The notes under the pieces were generated by a model, which saw only the letters and a list, made by a program, of their open reading frames with translations, was not told where the DNA came from and did not search any database. Both the position numbers and the translations under genes were made by a program. Below are positions 1-9,034 of a stretch of DNA of 64,000 nucleotides, one piece after another. Each line of letters starts with the position of its first letter. Within the stretch, counting starts at the first letter, position 1. The stretch comes from Oceanirhabdus sp. W0125-5 (GTDB taxonomy: Bacteria; Bacillota; Clostridia; Clostridiales; Clostridiaceae), in contig NZ_CP115913.1 of NCBI RefSeq assembly GCF_027938815.1, positions 4,002,001 to 4,066,000 of the forward strand. Reading direction: 5' to 3'.

Positions 1-1
1 A

Positions 2-805
2 ACTTCAATCCTATATTTTATATTAGGAAGCATCTTCTGCCCTAAAATAGATACCTCAAATATATTGTTATATATGATTGATTTAAATGAGAATTTTATC
101 ATTTCCCCCTATCTATTATTTATTCCATTTGCTGTAGTTTTTTTGACCTTCTTAGGGTTAAAGACTCTATATACACTTCCCATAGGAACACTCTTAGGAT
201 CAATTTGCGCAATTGTAGTTCAGAAAAAATCACTTTACGCTATTACTAATGCAATTTTAAAGGGATACTCACTAAAAAAAACAACTTCTATTATATCCCC
301 CTTAATAAAAGGAGGTGGAGCATTCAATATGCTGGAGGTAATAATAATTGTTGCAGGTTCTATAGTTCTAGTAACAATCCTTGATGAAAACGGCGTTTTA
401 TCTCCACTTACAGAGCTATTTCTCAAGAATATAACTTCACCACTAAAACTTATAATCAATACATCTTTATTAAGTTCAGTAATGACAATTATAACCTGTG
501 ATCAAACCATGGGAATAGTTCTTCCTGGAAAGTTGATGAAGCAACATTACTTAGACTATAAACTTACAGAGGATACTCTAGCCAGAACCATCTCTGATAC
601 TGGAACAATAATTGCACCTTTAATGCCCTGGAATGTAAATTCAATTATTATATTAGCTATAACTGGCGTGAGTTCTATTGTTTATGCCCCCTTTACATTT
701 CTGTGTATTTTAAACCCTTTAATATCTATAATAGTAATATGGGTAAAACTAAGACAAACACCCTTTAAAATTAATAAAGAATTAAAAATAACAAGTAGCG
801 ATTAG
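2..805 (+). CDS. NhaC-family Na+/H+ antiporter, 3' part (5' end outside window)
   Basis: C-terminal part of an integral-membrane antiporter that likely exchanges Na+ for H+ across the cytoplasmic membrane. The frame is open from base 2, so the gene starts upstream of the window; the internal TTG at 65 and ATG at 74 are not needed as starts. Several hydrophobic segments are visible. Family hallmarks seen are the GGGAFNMLEVI stretch, a CDQTMGIVLPG segment and the SDTGTIIAPLMPWN segment, all typical of the C-terminal half of NhaC proteins. The 267 residues seen fit a family of about 450-500. A hairpin overlaps the stop codon. Assignment to NhaC is by motif recognition; other members of the ion transporter superfamily are less likely. 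Confidence 0.8.
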   Translation, partial: TSILYFILGSIFCPKIDTSNILLYMIDLNENFIISPYLLFIPFAVVFLTFLGLKTLYTLPIGTLLGSICAIVVQKKSLYAITNAILKGYSLKKTTSIISPLIKGGGAFNMLEVIIIVAGSIVLVTILDENGVLSPLTELFLKNITSPLKLIINTSLLSSVMTIITCDQTMGIVLPGKLMKQHYLDYKLTEDTLARTISDTGTIIAPLMPWNVNSIIILAITGVSSIVYAPFTFLCILNPLISIIVIWVKLRQTPFKINKELKITSSD

Positions 806-832
806 TAGGCGTAGCCTAGTGCATTACTAATC
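800..832 (+). terminator. Hairpin overlapping the antiporter stop codon
   Basis: An inverted repeat GATTAGTA ... TACTAATC encloses a smaller GGC-GTA-GCC repeat and includes the stop codon of the antiporter gene. The T-rich run only comes about 15 bases later, so it is an imperfect terminator candidate. Confidence 0.35.
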
Positions 833-917
833 AAACCTCACTCAGTTTTTTATTTTATCTAGGTATAATCTAATATCTCGCACTCTTATTAGTTATATAT
901 TTTTTTAGGTATAGGTC

Positions 918-938
918 GGTACTTATTAAATAAGTACC
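918..938. repeat. Perfect hairpin palindrome outside the left terminal repeat
   Basis: Arms GGTACTTATT and AATAAGTACC separated by one base, directly outside the left terminal repeat of the IS1595-like element. It may be a transcription stop shielding the element or part of its end; no tight T-run follows it. Confidence 0.45.
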
Positions 939-939
939 C

Positions 940-968
940 TATCTCTCTTTTTTAGAATAATGTTGAAA
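940..968 (+). repeat. Left terminal inverted repeat
   Basis: Starts TATCTCTCTTTTTTA and ends ATGTTGAAA; its reverse complement recurs at 2712-2740 with three mismatches and, more weakly, at about 60508-60537. Confidence 0.6.
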
Positions 969-1110
969 AAATATCTGTTTAGACTATTCATATTATCTGT
1001 TTGGACTATTCACGTTATTAGACAAACTATTCTCACAGACTAATATTCTTAATATTTTTCAAGTAAATTAGATGTATTTATTATTTAGTGACTCATATAC
1101 TTTGAATCCC

Positions 1111-2523
1111 TTAAGCAGCAGTCACATAAATAGGCTTACGTTTCTTGAAATCCTTTATAATCATAAAACTATACTTACAGTGACTTTCTAAAAATAAACT
1201 CTCAGTAGCATTAGAGTTATCATCACAACACTCTGCCATTACATTTACAGTATATCCCCTCACTCTAGTAAAGTAATTCAAGATTCTATAATTTTTATTA
1301 AAAAGGTTCTTTTCCTTTATCCATCTATACCAATATAGATAGTTCGTCAAATATTTGCTTGATACACCATTAAAACTGCTTAGCCATTGGTTTACCTCTC
1401 TTTTCATTCCCATTAGATTTTCAATATGATACTTCTGATTATTATCACCAGTACATCCTCTAGCTAATCCTAAATCCATAGACTGAGCAAATAGATGATA
1501 ATGTCTATTTCCTTCAGTACACAATACAGTTCCAGAATTAATTTTTCCATAAAATATTTTTTCTAGTGTAATTTTATTAACTCTTCTATTACAAGCTTCA
1601 ATTATCATATTTCCTTTTCTATCTACTGCACATACCACATAATCAACCTTAGGTTTATTGTCATTAAAAATCAAAGTATATTTATTCTTAATCCCACATC
1701 TTCTCCCTTTATTAAATACTCCCCCATTTTTATTTCTTGTTACATTTCCTTTTACACTCTCAATTACTGCCATATGACCCATCTCAACTATTCCACCAAT
1801 ACAGCCTGACCCCATATTTATTCTTAACCCATCCATGATTTTATGTCTCCAGAAAAAAGCTGTAGCGATGTTTATTCCTACCATATGACTACATTCCTTT
1901 AATGATAAGCCCTTTACCATACATTTCATATATTTATTCCATTTATGAATTCCTTTCTTACTATAATACATAGGTGATAAAGTTATGTCACTAAATGTTT
2001 TTCCACACTCTTCACTCTTGCATTTATATCTCTGCTTACCATCATATTTGCCATACTTCCATATATCTATATATCCACAGTGTGGGCACACCCTTCCATC
2101 TTTGAATCTTAGTTTCCTTATACCTTCTATTATTGCTTCAACCTGGATGTTGTTTTTGTCACTTTTAATTTGATTTATTATTTTATCAAGTAAAATTAAT
2201 TTATTTCTTCTCTTTTCCTCACTAAGAATTCGCTTTTTTTCTTTCATCCTATTTTCTTGAATCCTCTTTATTTCTAACTCTCTAGCTCTATTTACCATTG
2301 CTAATAGATTTTCTTTTATTTCAGGTAAAAAATTTCCTTCTACTACATCCTTCTCAAATTTATCTAAAAAATCATCATTATATTGATATTCACCTTTTAC
2401 TAAAGATACTTTTTCACATTCCTTTGAATATTCATTAACTCCATTTTCACACATTTGATTATCACAGGTATTATTTTGAATATAATCACCTTTAATTAAA
2501 TTATTATTAAAAACTTTAGTCAT
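1111..2523 (-). CDS. IS1595-like transposase-derived protein with degenerate catalytic site
   Basis: 470 residues from the ATG at 2523, which has GGAGG five bases upstream; a longer frame runs through that site. Order: a charged, probably helical N-terminal extension of about 140 residues not usual in the family, a zinc ribbon (C146, C149, C168, C173) and an ISXO2/IS1595-type nuclease fold. In active members the first acidic residue lies in a V-E-x-D-E-T motif; here the same place reads VEMGHM (247-251), so Asp is Gly and the next Glu is His. The second Asp (VLCSDG type) is Glu337 in VLCTEG. The C-terminal part, including FNGVSSKYLTNYLYWYRW, is well kept. The frame is intact, so this is not simple decay. 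It may be a domesticated DNA-binding protein or depend on a helper. Fold assignment is confident; activity is unknown. Confidence 0.75.
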   Translation of the reverse strand: MTKVFNNNLIKGDYIQNNTCDNQMCENGVNEYSKECEKVSLVKGEYQYNDDFLDKFEKDVVEGNFLPEIKENLLAMVNRARELEIKRIQENRMKEKKRILSEEKRRNKLILLDKIINQIKSDKNNIQVEAIIEGIRKLRFKDGRVCPHCGYIDIWKYGKYDGKQRYKCKSEECGKTFSDITLSPMYYSKKGIHKWNKYMKCMVKGLSLKECSHMVGINIATAFFWRHKIMDGLRINMGSGCIGGIVEMGHMAVIESVKGNVTRNKNGGVFNKGRRCGIKNKYTLIFNDNKPKVDYVVCAVDRKGNMIIEACNRRVNKITLEKIFYGKINSGTVLCTEGNRHYHLFAQSMDLGLARGCTGDNNQKYHIENLMGMKREVNQWLSSFNGVSSKYLTNYLYWYRWIKEKNLFNKNYRILNYFTRVRGYTVNVMAECCDDNSNATESLFLESHCKYSFMIIKDFKKRKPIYVTAA

Positions 2524-2711
2524 AATTACCTCCAAAACTTATATCTATATAAAATGCACCTTTTAGAGTATATCCTTTTTTGCAAACACTCATTCGCACC
2601 TTTTCTATAATTATGACCATTCCTTATCTTTATATTCATTAATTCAAGAAATACTTTTAAATTTTTCACCTTTTAATCTGATTATAACTTGTACTCTAAC
2701 CAATAAAGTTA

Positions 2712-2740
2712 TTTCAACATTTTCTTAAAAAAGAGAGATA
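2712..2740 (-). repeat. Right terminal inverted repeat
   Basis: Partner of the repeat at 940-968, in opposite orientation, 26 of 29 positions identical. Confidence 0.6.
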
Positions 2741-2813
2741 TGTTACTGAAATTTAAGTTGTATATATATCACTTGAGAGTTAAATTAACTTAACAAATAA
2801 AAATATCAATGAA

Positions 2814-2854
2814 ATAAAAAAGATGACCCTTGTAGTATACAAAGATCATCTTTT
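2814..2854 (-). terminator. Terminator of the M4 protease gene
   Basis: Inverted repeat with outer arms AAGATGA and TCATCTT around a TTTGTA/TACAA inner stem, followed on the minus strand by a T-run; it lies about 95 bases past the protease stop. Confidence 0.6.
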
Positions 2855-2947
2855 AACTTCATAGTATTCTTTTAATATTGATAATGTAGCTTAAATTACA
2901 GAGTATCAATTCTGCACGAGTCTTTTTTACCTTAATTATAACTCATA

Positions 2948-4579
2948 TTAATTAACTCCAACCGAATCAAATGCATCATTTACAGCTTGAACCTCTGCAC
3001 TGTTAGCTCCATATAATTCAACAGCTGATTGCACGAGAGCTGCTCTAGCTTGACTAAATGTGCTTGAAGCTGTGAAGTGTTGTGTTAATGCACGATAGAA
3101 TATTTCAGTCATCTTATCTATGCCTATACCACTAACAGTAACGCCGTAATGTCTTCCACCTTCACTGATCAAATATGCAGCCTTATTAATAATTCCACTG
3201 TTCCAATGAACTCCACCATTATCTGCAGTTCCTACATATCTATCATCATAATGATCAGGATCTCCATATTTTGTAGGATCAGCCATTGATCTCATTGCAT
3301 CATTAGGATCTGCTGGAGTATAAATATCTTCTCCAATAAGCCAATCAGGATTATTGTTAAAAGCAAATTCTACTGCTGTTCCGAAAATATCTGACATTGC
3401 TTCATTTAATGCTCCAGATTCATTATAATAAATCAAATCTGCAGTATGCTCTGTAACCGCATGAGTTATTTCATGTGCTATTACATCTAGTGAACCTGAT
3501 AATTCAGTAAATGTAACACCGTCTCCATCTCCAAATACTATCTGCTGTCCATTCCAGAATGCATTATTATAACTTCTACTATAATGAACTGTTGCCTTAA
3601 TTAAACTACCTTTATTATCAAAGCTGTTTCTACTAAATCTATTTAAATAATAATCATAAGTTAAACCTGCATAATGATGAGCATCAACAGCAGCACGATC
3701 ATTAGAATCATTTAAAACATTATCACTATCTGCCCATAAACTTCCTGGAAGTCTAGTTCTGTTATTAGCATTATACGTTTCAATTCCATCTCCACGAGTT
3801 CTATCAACTAGATAATAAATAGAATTAGATAATAAAGTATTAATTTCTTTCGTATCTCCCAATACTCCAGTACCTGTTCCAACTGTGTCTTCGCCTGATG
3901 TAGGCTTTTTAGTAGGTTTTCCGTATTTAAGATTATTATATTTATTTATTAATTCTCCAGTTACTGCATCAATAAAGTAATTCCAGTTACCTGGCTCTGG
4001 ATATAAGAAGTTTAGATTTACTAAGTATGCATATCTAGCTTCATTTTCATGATAATATACTACTAAATCTGCTTCAGGTTTAACTTCATATTCCGGTTCA
4101 AAAGTTAAATCTTCTTGAGCTTTTTTAATTGCTTCATTCTTATTTATTTTTTTATCAAGTTTCAATTTATCATGCTTATCAAGATTAGGAATAACCGCTC
4201 CTGATATACTTGTAAGCACTCCATTTTTATCAATATGCGCTGCTTGAGTTGAGCCGAAAACAGGTATTCCTTTATATACTTGCTGCAGCTTTATATTAGT
4301 ATACCCTAATTTATCTATCTTTTTAGATGTTATCTTAAAAGCTTCTTTAGCATTCCCTTTTCCAAATTTAAACTTATCCTTACTGTTATCTAAATACTTA
4401 TATAAAACTTCTTCAGCACTTTCATTTGACGCATTTGTTAATTGACCAGATATAAATTCTGGGGTACCATGTTTTTTGTTCCAATTAATTTTTCCATTTT
4501 CTGATTTCGCCAATGCTGTTGATAGAGGTGAAAAAGCAAACACTAAAACTAATAAGATTGTTAGGAACTTATTTTTCAA
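2948..4579 (-). CDS. Secreted thermolysin-like zinc metalloprotease (M4, bacillolysin type)
   Basis: Extracellular endopeptidase made as a preproenzyme of 543 residues. A signal peptide (about 1-24, ending STALA) is followed by an FTP/PepSY propeptide (about 30-215) and a catalytic domain from about 235. The zinc site HEITH is at 369-373, the third ligand Glu393 lies in ALNEAMSD, and the catalytic-acid His458 lies in GVHWNSGI, so all key residues of the M4 family are present. The TTG start is supported by AAGGAG seven bases upstream. The gene stands alone. With the two DUF885 lipoproteins upstream it suggests growth on protein. Family assignment is very secure. Confidence 0.95.
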
Positions 4580-4870
4580 AAAAACACTCCTTATAAATTT
4601 TTGAATTTTACTTATATTGTAATTTTATGAAGTGCTTTTTTGATTTATGAATACATACATTAAAAAAAGCAATTTACAAAATGAACAAAATTATTCTTTA
4701 AATCCTCCCTATAAACCTATTAATTCAAGAATTTATTTAACTTTTTTTCTTTTTGATATTAATATTTGATTTTACTCTAATTCACCAAACATAATAATAT
4801 CTATTTACATATAATGTAAATAACAAGTTATAATTATATTAAGTATGATAAGTTATTTTTTAAGTTTTAA
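4580..4870. other. Intergenic region upstream of the protease
   Basis: AT-rich and without a convincing gene. It holds the protease ribosome binding site and a loose inverted repeat (TGCTTTTTT ... AAAAAAGCA, about 4631-4671). I could not pick a convincing promoter. Confidence 0.4.
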
Positions 4871-4908
4871 AAAAATCACGCTTCCAAAATTTCAGAAACG
4901 TGATTTTT
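4871..4908 (-). terminator. Terminator of the first DUF885 lipoprotein gene
   Basis: Stem AAAAATCACG / CGTGATTTTT just past the stop codon; it can act in both directions. Confidence 0.75.
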
Positions 4909-4911
4909 ATT

Positions 4912-6735
4912 CTATTTACTACTTTTTTCTTTTATTCTATTATCAATATGCATCGACAATATTTCTAAAGGTATTGCCCCATTCTCTAGAATCCATCCAT
5001 TAAACTCTACAATATCAAATTTTTCACCAAGTTCCTTTTTTGCTTTTTCACGCAATTTTACAATATGTAATTCCCCAATTTTATAAGAACATGCTTGAGC
5101 AGGTATAGCTGTATATCTTACAACTTCACGTCTTGAATAGCCTTCATTTTGAAAACCTTCATTTACCATATACTTTATCGCTTTATCTATATTCCAATCA
5201 AAATAATTAAGTCCTGTATCAACAACTAACCTTGTAGCTCTAAATAACTCTGACTTTAAATACCCAAGATGATGCTTTGGATCTTTTGAAAATTGCATTT
5301 CATCAGCTAATTTCTCAGCATACAATGCCCATCCTTCCATAAAAGCATTGTTTGACCACATATTTATTAGACTACTATTTGAATTTCGAATGGCATTCTC
5401 ACGTTCTAAATGATGTCCTGGTATAGTTTCATGATATGCTAAAGTATTAATATCATAATCAACTTGTTGATAACCAAAATCAAGATAAAAGGTTCCAGCT
5501 CTTTTTAAATCATATGATGGTGAAGAATAGTAATCGCCACCGCCAGATGGTGTAATATTAGGTATAGATTCTGGTATGAATTCTTTTGGAACAATCTTAT
5601 GCAAATTATCTATTGCATTTTTCATAACTTTTTCATACTGTGCCACGGATTCTTGTCCACTATATTTTTTATCATCCCAAGTCAACTTATCATATGCACT
5701 TTTTAAATCACTTGTATCATATCCTATGGCTTCAAAGCTTCTTTTAATATCTGCTCTTATACGTTTTACTTCACTTTCCCCTAATTGCATAATTTCTTCA
5801 GGCGTTAGGTTTGTTGTTGTCTGTTGTTTTATACGAAATTGATAGTATTCTTTCCCATTAGGCAAGTCACTAGCTCCAACTACATCTGAACGCGATTCTA
5901 TAAGTGCCCCTAGTTTTTCAGCCACTTCAGTAAGTGCGGGAATATATTCTTCATCTATTATTACTTGTAATTGAGTTAATAGCTCATCCTTGTTTTCAAT
6001 TTCTAAGGATTTAATTTTGTTTTCATAATATTTATATACATCATTTTTCCTTCCATTTCTACCTAGATAGCATGTTTTAATTGTATCTATTGATGAGTAC
6101 ATAATATACTTATTGAATAAAATCCCCTTTTCATTTCCTTCTTCAAAGCTTTTAAGCAAATTAAGTAGCATGTCATCAGCCAGTTTGAATCGATTTATAT
6201 AATTTACTGCACTTGCTTCATCCTCAATTATTGCTTTGTTTGAAAACACTCCATGGATAAATGAAACCGCTCCATTTATTCCCCAGAATGGATGTAAGTG
6301 TTGTTGATATTCCATCCCTTCTAACTTTTCATTAAGATACCACTGTACCGTTAAAAAATTAATGTCATTTTTATCTACATCTTTAAATGAGTTTAATTTA
6401 TTAAGTCCTTCAAGGTAAAGTTGTTTTTCTCTCTCAACCTCCTCATTACTTCCAGTATTCATTCTATCTTTAATATCATTAAGTCCTAATTCATCTAAAT
6501 TAGTAAATACTACATCCCATGTTGGATATATAGTCATAATATCTTTAAACATTAGTTCTTTAAAGTCCTGAAAATTCTTTGCTTTTGATATATAAAACTC
6601 GTAGTTTAAATCTCCATCTAGTTTTTTTAAAGATTGATCTCCCTTTAATTCATTTTTCTGTGAATCATTCCCCTTTGTTGAACACCCTGATAATAACATT
6701 ACTAAAATCAAAAATATTACAAATACTTTTTTCAT
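4912..6735 (-). CDS. DUF885 family lipoprotein, predicted metallopeptidase (copy 1)
   Basis: 607 residues. A lipoprotein signal (MKKVFVIFLILVMLLSGC, lipidated Cys18) anchors the protein outside the membrane. The rest is a single DUF885 domain with the family signature HETIPGHH at 435-442, a zinc-peptidase-like HExxxxH arrangement, and a following EGWALYAEKLADEM stretch with a conserved acidic residue. Members are annotated as putative metallopeptidases; a carboxypeptidase-type role is likely but unproven. The start has AGGGGG seven bases upstream. It is followed on the same strand side by a close paralogue at 7015-8859, so this is a tandem duplication. Family call is firm, substrate unknown. 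Confidence 0.88.
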   Translation of the reverse strand: MKKVFVIFLILVMLLSGCSTKGNDSQKNELKGDQSLKKLDGDLNYEFYISKAKNFQDFKELMFKDIMTIYPTWDVVFTNLDELGLNDIKDRMNTGSNEEVEREKQLYLEGLNKLNSFKDVDKNDINFLTVQWYLNEKLEGMEYQQHLHPFWGINGAVSFIHGVFSNKAIIEDEASAVNYINRFKLADDMLLNLLKSFEEGNEKGILFNKYIMYSSIDTIKTCYLGRNGRKNDVYKYYENKIKSLEIENKDELLTQLQVIIDEEYIPALTEVAEKLGALIESRSDVVGASDLPNGKEYYQFRIKQQTTTNLTPEEIMQLGESEVKRIRADIKRSFEAIGYDTSDLKSAYDKLTWDDKKYSGQESVAQYEKVMKNAIDNLHKIVPKEFIPESIPNITPSGGGDYYSSPSYDLKRAGTFYLDFGYQQVDYDINTLAYHETIPGHHLERENAIRNSNSSLINMWSNNAFMEGWALYAEKLADEMQFSKDPKHHLGYLKSELFRATRLVVDTGLNYFDWNIDKAIKYMVNEGFQNEGYSRREVVRYTAIPAQACSYKIGELHIVKLREKAKKELGEKFDIVEFNGWILENGAIPLEILSMHIDNRIKEKSSK

Positions 6736-6945: not shown

Positions 6946-7016
6946 CGTCATAATTCAAGTGGTGACAGGCACCTTTTCTTATTATTCGTCATAATGCGAG
7001 TGGTGACAGTCCCCTT
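6946..7016. repeat. Two REP-like units (GGTGACAGGCACC type)
   Basis: Two direct copies of a ~30-bp unit, CGTCATAATxCxAGTGGTGACAGxCxCCTT, at 6946-6975 and 6987-7016. The first contains GGTGACAGGCACC, a small stem with GGTG/CACC arms; the second reads GGTGACAGTCCCC. The second copy abuts and overlaps the stop codon of the gene at 7015. Such GTGACAGGCACC/GTGACAGTCCCC units resemble Firmicute REP elements mobilised by Y1-type (RAYT) transposases; that link is from general knowledge. Confidence 0.5.
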
Positions 7017-8859
7017 ATTTTTTTTCTTTTATTCTATTATCAATATGGATTGACAATACATCTAGAGGTATTGAACCATTTTCAAGAATCCATCCATTAA
7101 ATTCTACAAGGTCAAATTTTTCACCAAGTTCCTTTTTTGCTTTTTCACGTAATTTTAAAATACTTAATTCACCAAGTTTGTATGAGCAAGCTTGAGCAGG
7201 AATAGCTGTATATCTTATAATCTCACTTCTTGCAAAGGATGGATGCTGCAAACCTTCATATACCATATAATTCCCAGCTTTATTCAAATCCCAACCAAAA
7301 TAATTAAGTCCTGTATCAACAACTAATCTTGTAGCTCTAAATAACTCCGACTTTAAATAACCAAGATGATGTTTAGGATTATTTGAAAATTGCATTTCAT
7401 CCGCTAATTTCTCTGCATACAATGCCCATCCTTCAACGTAGGCTCCGTAATGTCCCATTTTTAAGAACTCACTTATATTTGGATTTCGAATTGTCTTTTC
7501 ACGTTCTAAATGATGTCCAGGTATAGTTTCATGAAATGCTAAAGTATTAATAGCATAATCAACATGATTATAACCAAGATCAATATAAAAAGTTCCTGCT
7601 CTACTTAAATCAAATGATGGTGATGAATAGTAATTCCCACCACCAGATGGTTTAATATCAGGTAAAGATTCTGGTATAAATTCTTTTGGAACAATCTTAT
7701 TCAAATTATCCATTGCATTTTTCATAACCTTTTGATACTGAGCTACTGCTAATTGTCCATTGTATATTTTGTCATTCATAGCCAATTTATTATATGCACT
7801 TATTAAATCACTACTATCATATCCTAAAGCTTCAAAACTTTTTTTAATTTCATCTCTTATACGTTTCACTTCACTTTCTCCTAATTTCATAATTTCTTCA
7901 GGAGTTAAGTTTGTTGTTGTCTGTTGTTTTATACGAAATTGATAATACTCTTTTCCATCAGGCAAATCTGCAGCTCCTATTACATCTGATCTTGGACTTT
8001 TAAAATCAATTAATTTATTTGACACTTCCGTAAGTGCTGGAATATATTCTTCATCTATTATTGTTATTAATTGAGCTAAAAGTTCATCTTTATTTTCTAT
8101 ATTTAATGGTTTAATTTTCTCCTCAAAGTATTTGTAAACATCATTACGTCGTCCATTTCTTAATTCATAGCAATTTGTAATTGTACCTTTTGCTGTGTAC
8201 ATAACATAATTATTGAAATAAATCCCCTTTTTATTTCCCTCCTCAAAACTTTTTAATGTATTAAGTATTAAGTCATCTGCTAATTTAAATCTGTTTATAA
8301 AATTCACTGCACTTACTTCATCCTCTATTATTGAGTCATTTGAAAAAAACCTATGAGTAGATGAAATAATACCATTTATACCCCAGAAAGGATTTAAGTG
8401 CTTCTTAAATTCCAATCCCTCTAACTGCAGATTAAGATACCACTTTACAGTTAAAAAATTTATATCACTCTTGTCTATATCTTTAAATGAGTTTAATTTT
8501 TCAAGAGCTTCAATATAAAGTTGTTTTTCTTTATTAATTTCCTCTTCACTTCCAGTATTTAATCTACCTTTTATATCATCAAGTCCTAAATCATCTAATT
8601 CAGTAAATATACAATCCCATGATGGATAAATAGAAATTATATCTTTAAACATTAGGTCCTGAAATTCCTGAAAGTTCTTTGCTTTTGACATATAGAAATC
8701 ATAATTTGACTTTTCTTCATTTAATATTGTGGATTTTTCCTCTGTTAATATTGAAGACTTCTCTCCATTAAGTTCATTTTTCTTTGAATCTTTTTCTGTT
8801 GTTGAACATCCTGATATAAAAATAATCATAATTATTAAAAACACTAAAATTTTTTTCAT
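7015..8859 (-). CDS. DUF885 family lipoprotein, predicted metallopeptidase (copy 2)
   Basis: 614 residues from the ATG at 8859, chosen because GGGGTGAT precedes it and a lipoprotein signal (MKKILVFLIIMIIFISGC) follows; a frame open 29 codons further upstream lacks such a site. Same architecture as copy 1, with HETIPGHH at about 443-450 and the same C-terminal EGWALYAEKLADEM block. A repeated, Ser/Thr/Glu-rich linker after the lipid anchor (SSILTEEKSTILNEEKS) is not in copy 1. The two proteins are clearly alike over their full length, so one arose by tandem duplication. The stop codon lies inside a REP-like repeat. Confidence 0.88.
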   Translation of the reverse strand: MKKILVFLIIMIIFISGCSTTEKDSKKNELNGEKSSILTEEKSTILNEEKSNYDFYMSKAKNFQEFQDLMFKDIISIYPSWDCIFTELDDLGLDDIKGRLNTGSEEEINKEKQLYIEALEKLNSFKDIDKSDINFLTVKWYLNLQLEGLEFKKHLNPFWGINGIISSTHRFFSNDSIIEDEVSAVNFINRFKLADDLILNTLKSFEEGNKKGIYFNNYVMYTAKGTITNCYELRNGRRNDVYKYFEEKIKPLNIENKDELLAQLITIIDEEYIPALTEVSNKLIDFKSPRSDVIGAADLPDGKEYYQFRIKQQTTTNLTPEEIMKLGESEVKRIRDEIKKSFEALGYDSSDLISAYNKLAMNDKIYNGQLAVAQYQKVMKNAMDNLNKIVPKEFIPESLPDIKPSGGGNYYSSPSFDLSRAGTFYIDLGYNHVDYAINTLAFHETIPGHHLEREKTIRNPNISEFLKMGHYGAYVEGWALYAEKLADEMQFSNNPKHHLGYLKSELFRATRLVVDTGLNYFGWDLNKAGNYMVYEGLQHPSFARSEIIRYTAIPAQACSYKLGELSILKLREKAKKELGEKFDLVEFNGWILENGSIPLDVLSIHIDNRIKEKK

Positions 8860-9034
8860 ACAATCACCCCTATATTGTTTCCATGATATTACATTTATAT
8901 GAACAATATACCACATTATTCTATTACCAGTTATTTGCATACACAATATTTCTATATAAATTCAAAAACCAATTTCTCTAAAGCATAGCCAATTAACAAT
9001 TAACTAATAATATTAATATAACTAATATAAGCAG

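Follow-up and report, generated by a model that had tools for sequence, protein, structure and literature searches.

What is a transposase-like protein whose catalytic residues have been replaced, and whose gene still lies between the inverted ends of its element? The question is raised by an IS1595-like gene near the start of a 64,000-nucleotide stretch of the Oceanirhabdus sp. W0125-5 chromosome (NZ_CP115913.1, positions 4,002,001 to 4,066,000; hereafter the window). The reading that we prefer, at a probability of roughly one half, is that it encodes an exapted transposase of the IS1595 lineage, one that has lost catalysis, has kept its DNA-binding part, RNase H-like scaffold and ends, and would now be maintained as a DNA-binding protein.

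Domain architecture of the window protein

The gene occupies positions 1111–2535 of the window on the minus strand, begins with a TTG start codon, has no internal stop and encodes 474 amino acids. The NCBIfam model for IS1595 family transposases (NF033547) matches the core of the protein with 111.9 bits against a cut-off of 75. The zinc ribbon, formed by C150, C153, C172 and C177 (2005–2088, minus strand), is of the IS1595 type: PF12760 matches residues 137–180 with 28.7 bits (cut-off 25.4), NF050000 scores 41.6 bits (cut-off 28), and the four cysteines are invariant columns in a 13-row alignment. A preliminary description of this DNA, made from the letters alone, had called the zinc ribbon and the C-terminal core intact, and PF12760 and NF033547, both above their curated cut-offs, bear this out. 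The Pfam DDE domain PF12762 had no match to the protein up to an E-value of 1.

With its zinc ribbon, order of RNase H-like domain, terminal inverted repeats and single ORF, the element is built like those of the IS1595 family (IS1595, ISPna2, IS1016 and other groups). It differs in an N-terminal extension of about 95 residues: 149 residues (2089–2535, minus strand) precede the first ribbon cysteine, compared with 53 in L005, the canonical paralogue in the same genome. The preliminary description had noticed this extension, which is common to the other near-full-length family members. The extension evolves faster than the core (48% against 75% identity between the window protein and L038, its closest relative in Oceanirhabdus seepicola), and the region of the zinc ribbon and HTH is best kept, with 59 of 104 residues invariant at 139–242 and 51 of 168 at 243–410 by manual count.

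The RNase H-like core spans residues 247–410 (1306–1797, minus strand). A structure model of the protein has a mean pLDDT of 66 and a pTM of 0.50 and is good only in the core; it predicts a long helix at residues 71–125 of the extension, where the block-mean pLDDT is about 55–87. Residues 246–417 of the model are RNase H-like and match mostly retroviral integrase cores, but other DDE enzymes too, at Z 9.0–10.6 among the 50 rows shown, which cover Foldseek-ranked chains only. In many of these rows the alignment starts with model residue 247 at residue 58 of an HIV-type integrase, or with residue 246 at residue 121 of the PFV integrase. Given no intervening gap, residue 253 would then sit at the first catalytic Asp, D64 of the former and D128 of the latter. 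The predicted RNase H-like fold persists in the modelled window protein although the acidic residues are lost. Searched by sequence, solved structures gave no match to the protein at E-values up to 1; Rfam gave none at the gathering threshold in positions 1–5000 of the window, and no evidence of a guide RNA was seen.

Replacement of the active site

In an alignment with relatives, the first catalytic Asp of the canonical proteins is G253 in the window protein, the Glu next to it is H254 and the second Asp is E341, exactly as the preliminary description had read them. Two further replacements had escaped it, Asn to Met (M375) and Lys to Asn (N382). The alignment of 42 rows comprises 27 proteins with D, D, N, one with D, D, S, seven of the Oceanirhabdus family, five in which the second Asp is Asn and the Asn is Lys, and two without all three residues. 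Among the 28 canonical rows, D253 and D341 are each present in 28 and N375 in 27, whereas D253, D341 and N375 are replaced in 7/7 family rows, the window protein included: G253, H254 and M375 are found in all seven and E341 in six. Position 341 is Val in L003 and Gln in L006. Five residues, E251, H254, E259, D305 and E380, are 7/7 in the family clade.

A family in two Oceanirhabdus species

The family was compared between the window's genome (a 5.78-Mb chromosome) and one other Oceanirhabdus, O. seepicola ZWT (a draft of seven contigs). The former has four members in addition to the window copy, namely L002 (64% identity with the window protein), L003 (54%), L004 (47%) and the broken L006/L007; the latter has L038 (66%), L039 (62%) and L040 (50%), the same loci as L072–L074. 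Non-broken members are thus 47–66% identical to the window protein. An open frame of 445–474 amino acids is present in 7/8 members, and the window protein and six near-full-length paralogues form one clade (SH-aLRT 100 in a quick tree of 60 rows). In L002 an insertion on the 5′ side has displaced the start region, and the same 2,153-bp sequence (100% identity) interrupts L006/L007. These insertions (L125, 2938–5090; L127, 1899–4051), presumably IS21-type from their two ORFs, thus lie in two of the five altered elements of the window's genome.

Among 225 genomes of the order searched with a family profile (E-value up to 1e-40, top candidates scored), scores above 300 bits came only from the window's genome and O. 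seepicola, and the next best score was 299 bits. A DNA search of plasmids found no relatives; protein searches of plasmids and phages returned 89 plasmid and 4 phage records, none of which reached 60% identity or spanned 80% of the query, and viral contigs gave three weak, partial matches.

Homologues with normal DDE residues would, according to the preliminary description, mark the window copy as a simple mutant. Such homologues do occur, L005 among them, with identities of about 40%. However, the clade-wide altered form represents an old, monophyletic and conserved state, and for this reason the window copy is not a simple mutant.

Shared loci and movement

The flanks of L004 and L040 match on both sides (84% over 1,095 columns and 87% over 426), and we conclude firmly that these two copies are positional orthologues. 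The window copy and L038 lie in the same orientation in the same syntenic block, which runs from a Na+/H+ antiporter gene (assigned from PF03553) to a gene that we take to be purD. Their positional orthology is likely rather than proven, because different genes have been inserted on one side in each species. In a comparison of window positions 1–5200 with O. seepicola, only short matches (<100 bp) lie beyond position 2772; further along, at 4912–6735 and 7015–8946, the window carries two tandem, similar lipoprotein-like ORFs of 607 and 643 amino acids, beside an ORF that is presumably M4-type peptidase-like.

The suggestion in the preliminary description that the element still travels, or recently did, finds no support in the window copy, which is probably older than the divergence of the two species, but some support in the family. 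L006 and L004 are 84% identical, compared with 74% for the positional orthologues L004 and L040, which implies that some copying took place after the split. L039 lies at a site that is without an element in the window's genome, in a region that has been rebuilt, and miniature elements of the family, described below, are largely unshared. L003, too, seems to be older than the split. The corresponding O. seepicola site retains an apparent end tip and, on the opposite side, part of the second end; at least this copy was dispensable, since it was lost there and left these scars.

Elements of the IS1595 family are reported to make an 8-bp target-site duplication (PMC8101967). By eye, none was convincing at the flanks of the elements studied here, which are old copies, and the orthologous gaps that might serve as empty sites, too diverged or rebuilt, revealed no duplication either.

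Selection on the protein and conservation of the ends

We estimated dN/dS over the core by the NG86 method and obtained 0.173 for the window copy and L038 and 0.145 for L004 and L040. Across all 28 pairwise comparisons among eight members the ratio was 0.075–0.43 in 25 and undefined in three; these values are rough because dS ranges from 0.8 to 3.0. Purifying selection on the VEMGHM form had been proposed as a check, and the result agrees with it: VExGH is fixed in the clade and dN/dS is low. In O. seepicola, canonical relatives are present as fragments only, and altered family members are still open frames. Low dN/dS would, however, also be expected of an active element with unusual chemistry.

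The ends provide a separate line of evidence. The matching inverted ends reported previously are confirmed as arms of 39 nt at 933–971 and 2709–2747, 85% complementary, and both ends are present in the full elements at the window locus, L003, L004, L038, L039 and L040. Of the two terminal inverted repeats, the one 5′ of the gene (2710–2741) is identical to its counterpart in L038 at 29/31 positions and the one 3′ of it (939–970) at 26/34, compared with 69/138 for the adjoining trailer. For L004 and L040 the ends agree at 31/31 and 29/34 positions (115/130 when both orthologous pairs are pooled). Trailers agree at 76/164 in addition to the 69/138 (pooled 145/302), and the flanks outside the elements at 37/85, 79/135, 56/126 and 65/134. 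Conservation also extends to the leaders (77/106 and 126/173; pooled 203/279), and a leader motif, GGTCATAATTATA..GCGAA..TGTTTG, located upstream of the start codon at 2582–2620 on the minus strand, is kept in all six full-element leaders aligned; it is possibly a promoter or operator. The end sequences have thus changed far less between positional orthologues than most adjoining non-coding DNA. The ends of an unmoved element should drift unless they have a use where they are, and we therefore regard end conservation as the strongest single argument for reuse. Both the protein and its ends look to be selected in place. That the protein is domesticated, as had been suggested, is well supported in so far as VExGH is clade-wide, dN/dS is low, and one locus surely and one probably has been kept in two species.

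Dispersed end sequences and miniature elements

The end sequence recurs throughout the window's genome. With up to three mismatches we found 33+39 = 72 matches, compared with 1+1 for a reversed control; in O. seepicola there were 13+14 = 27, compared with 1+3. Copies with identical ends had been proposed as a further check, and the answer is divided: end matches abound genome-wide, but the full element of the window has no near-identical copies in its own genome or in O. seepicola.

End matches are often paired as short intergenic miniature elements. Twelve of these, 93–113 bp long, were aligned and are 60–93% identical over the whole element; in those of about 104 bp the ends are nearly uniform and the interiors differ, by eye. 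In a 400-kb stretch that is 80.5% coding, none of 18 end-bearing sites (two of which are full elements) falls within an ORF; one lies between divergent genes, 13 between tandem and four between convergent genes. The sites also cluster: 24/34 lie within 558 kb (4002000–4560000, less than 10% of the chromosome), a concentration reached by none of 20,000 random placements. The 34 sites result from a manual merge of close matches, with seven isolated three-mismatch matches dropped; the count is 24/41 if these are kept.

Few of the miniature elements are shared between the species. Collinear stretches contain 16 miniature sites in the window's genome, whereas in O. seepicola they contain three end matches apart from those of the full element. 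We saw one site common to both species (4266726 and C2:1235431), and most of eight aligned sites lack a counterpart. We therefore conclude that the miniature elements turn over. We considered that they might form a conserved regulon and rejected this, as they are largely unshared with O. seepicola and are not enriched between divergent genes.

A canonical relative as a possible helper

An intact IS1595 transposase such as L005 might recognise the ends and move both the element and its miniature copies, in line with the helper dependence that the preliminary description had allowed for; the altered protein would then be a by-product or damper of this process. We consider this unlikely, though L005 could play such a role in the window's genome: L005 is the sole canonical paralogue there (40% identical to the window protein, and the only canonical-scoring copy in that genome in an NCBIfam IS1595 search of five genomes), it retains D, D, N and K, and the inner 19 nt of its one recognisable end, TTTTAAAATAATGTTGAAA, are as in the family consensus by eye. 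The seemingly recent copy of the L004 lineage, L006, would also fit, as would the larger number of end matches in the genome with L005 (72) than in the one without (27), a contrast between two genomes only. However, L005 is a single copy with only one matching end, and the tip of that end differs, AGCTATG where the family has AGCTCTCTT. The NCBIfam search found no intact canonical copy in the O. seepicola draft, only the three family copies and fragments. Moreover, end conservation extends to copies that have apparently stayed in place, and a passenger ORF should not hold dN/dS near 0.15.

Altered proteins in other Clostridiaceae

A second alternative, which we judge distinctly unlikely, is that the protein still works as a transposase, its active site having been rebuilt, for example, from E251, H254, E259, D305, E341 and E380. 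Their near-complete fixation in the clade speaks for this, but position 341 tolerates Val and Gln, and the Oceanirhabdus full elements have neither near-identical copies nor a visible target duplication. Altered proteins elsewhere in the Clostridiaceae bear on this alternative in both directions. We inspected 40 further loci, picked as multi-copy or partly matching rather than as a random sample, from a survey in which the best seven first-look candidates per genome were scored. In 33 of them the frame is open and at least the Asn and the aligned second Asp are missing; two are of the D-to-N type, in four a canonical-type copy has been broken into two frames, and one is unclear. The first Asp is retained in four of the 33 altered open frames (G181). 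An Asp two columns after the canonical second one (D343) is fixed in the two largest altered clades (14/14 and 9/9) and may be a shifted catalytic residue. The altered clades keep different residues from one another, however, which argues against a rebuilt site.

The copies in G191 favour activity. Six copies of another altered clade there (L233–L238) are 91–97% identical over at least 1.1 kb at different chromosomal places, and among ten full-length open frames the best IS1595 score is 77 bits, compared with 201 and 214 for canonical copies elsewhere; the active-site columns cover part of these ten frames, and the search there was for IS1595 transposases only. Some copy pairs also share a few hundred bp of flank, and for this reason the copies need not all be separate insertions. 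L232–L238 and further G191 loci are a case of a multi-copy altered element in a genome that has no canonical-scoring IS1595 copy.

Other altered groups were seen in the same searches. The first Asp is Thr or Ser in 14/14 IS1595-like proteins (L239–L242, L247–L253, L262, L263 and L087), of which L240, L242 and L252 have conserved neighbours in common, in L240 a radical SAM/SPASM protein and an M16 peptidase. The first Asp and the Glu are kept, the second Asp is Asn and the Asn is Lys in 7/7 others (L067, L069, L075–L077, L270 and L271); inverted ends were seen at L069 and L076.

From summed dN and dS we obtained ratios of 0.195 for G191 (36 pairs), 0.196 for G181 (10 pairs), 0.220 for G106 (15 pairs) and 0.201 for three VELTK orthologues (3 pairs), and 0.32 and 0.23 for two further single pairs. 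With midpoint rooting, the tree requires three changes between the canonical and other groups, and for two of these it is well-supported branches that impose the change. Clostridiaceae IS1595-like proteins thus look to have lost their catalytic residues recurrently while staying under selection.

That the window gene is a plain decaying mutant, open by chance, is hardly credible: a broken member, L006/L007, does exist in the same genome, but fixation throughout the clade, the open frames of the other seven members and conservation across species weigh against this idea, and dN/dS and the shared L004/L040 flanks contradict it.

Discussion

The case for exaptation combines features that could be compared directly between sequences: catalytic residues were lost, the replacements are fixed throughout one clade, dN/dS is low, the ends change slowly, and a shared locus is firm in one case and probable in another. 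On this reading the catalytic residues would have been lost in an Oceanirhabdus ancestor. The protein would bind the ends of its own element, presumably also where this sequence recurs in dozens of miniature elements, and would probably act as a repressor, autoregulator or architectural protein rather than as a cutting enzyme. The ends would be operator-like and kept together with the protein, and rare movement would need the help of an intact relative.

Loss of catalysis followed by reuse is known for TnpB, as TldR, and for eukaryotic transposases. The miniature elements of the present family resemble miniature inverted-repeat elements (MITEs) in being short and intergenic and in having the same ends as the full element, but the five-genome IS1595 search found no active partner with exactly the family ends. 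We know of no description of a bacterial DDE insertion sequence that has lost catalysis and been reused with its ends conserved at a fixed locus, and a survey of titles and abstract openings, with most subscription papers outside its scope, yielded no such case.

TldR proteins are reported to be nuclease-dead TnpB proteins in which catalysis was lost several times independently and DNA targeting was kept (PMC13418256). The likeness lies in a transposon protein retained after catalytic loss; in the window protein, too, catalytic residues are replaced yet the coding sequence appears to be under purifying selection. TldR is RNA-guided in its DNA binding, represses a target gene and often has partner genes, whereas the window protein would bind through its zinc ribbon and HTH, and no partner gene was noted. 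A second comparison is with TnpAREP (RAYT), described as a cleaving HuH enzyme with its catalytic Tyr intact and proposed to be domesticated (PMC8266576). In both systems a chromosomal gene derived from a transposase is accompanied by numerous short, dispersed cognate sequences. The window protein, which matches the IS1595 model and is predicted to have an RNase H-like fold, is not an HuH nuclease with a catalytic Tyr; it lacks its catalytic residues, and its gene still lies between its own ends.

More broadly, it is possible, if doubtful, that the Clostridiaceae harbour a recurrent class of transposon-derived DNA-binding proteins in which IS1595 chemistry was lost several times and each lineage came under selection. 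Some of these reach about ten full-length copies where no canonical enzyme was found, so they would have recruited foreign chemistry or rebuilt the active site. With an intact relative found in one species and not in the other, and with positional orthologues in both, Oceanirhabdus offers a clean comparative system.
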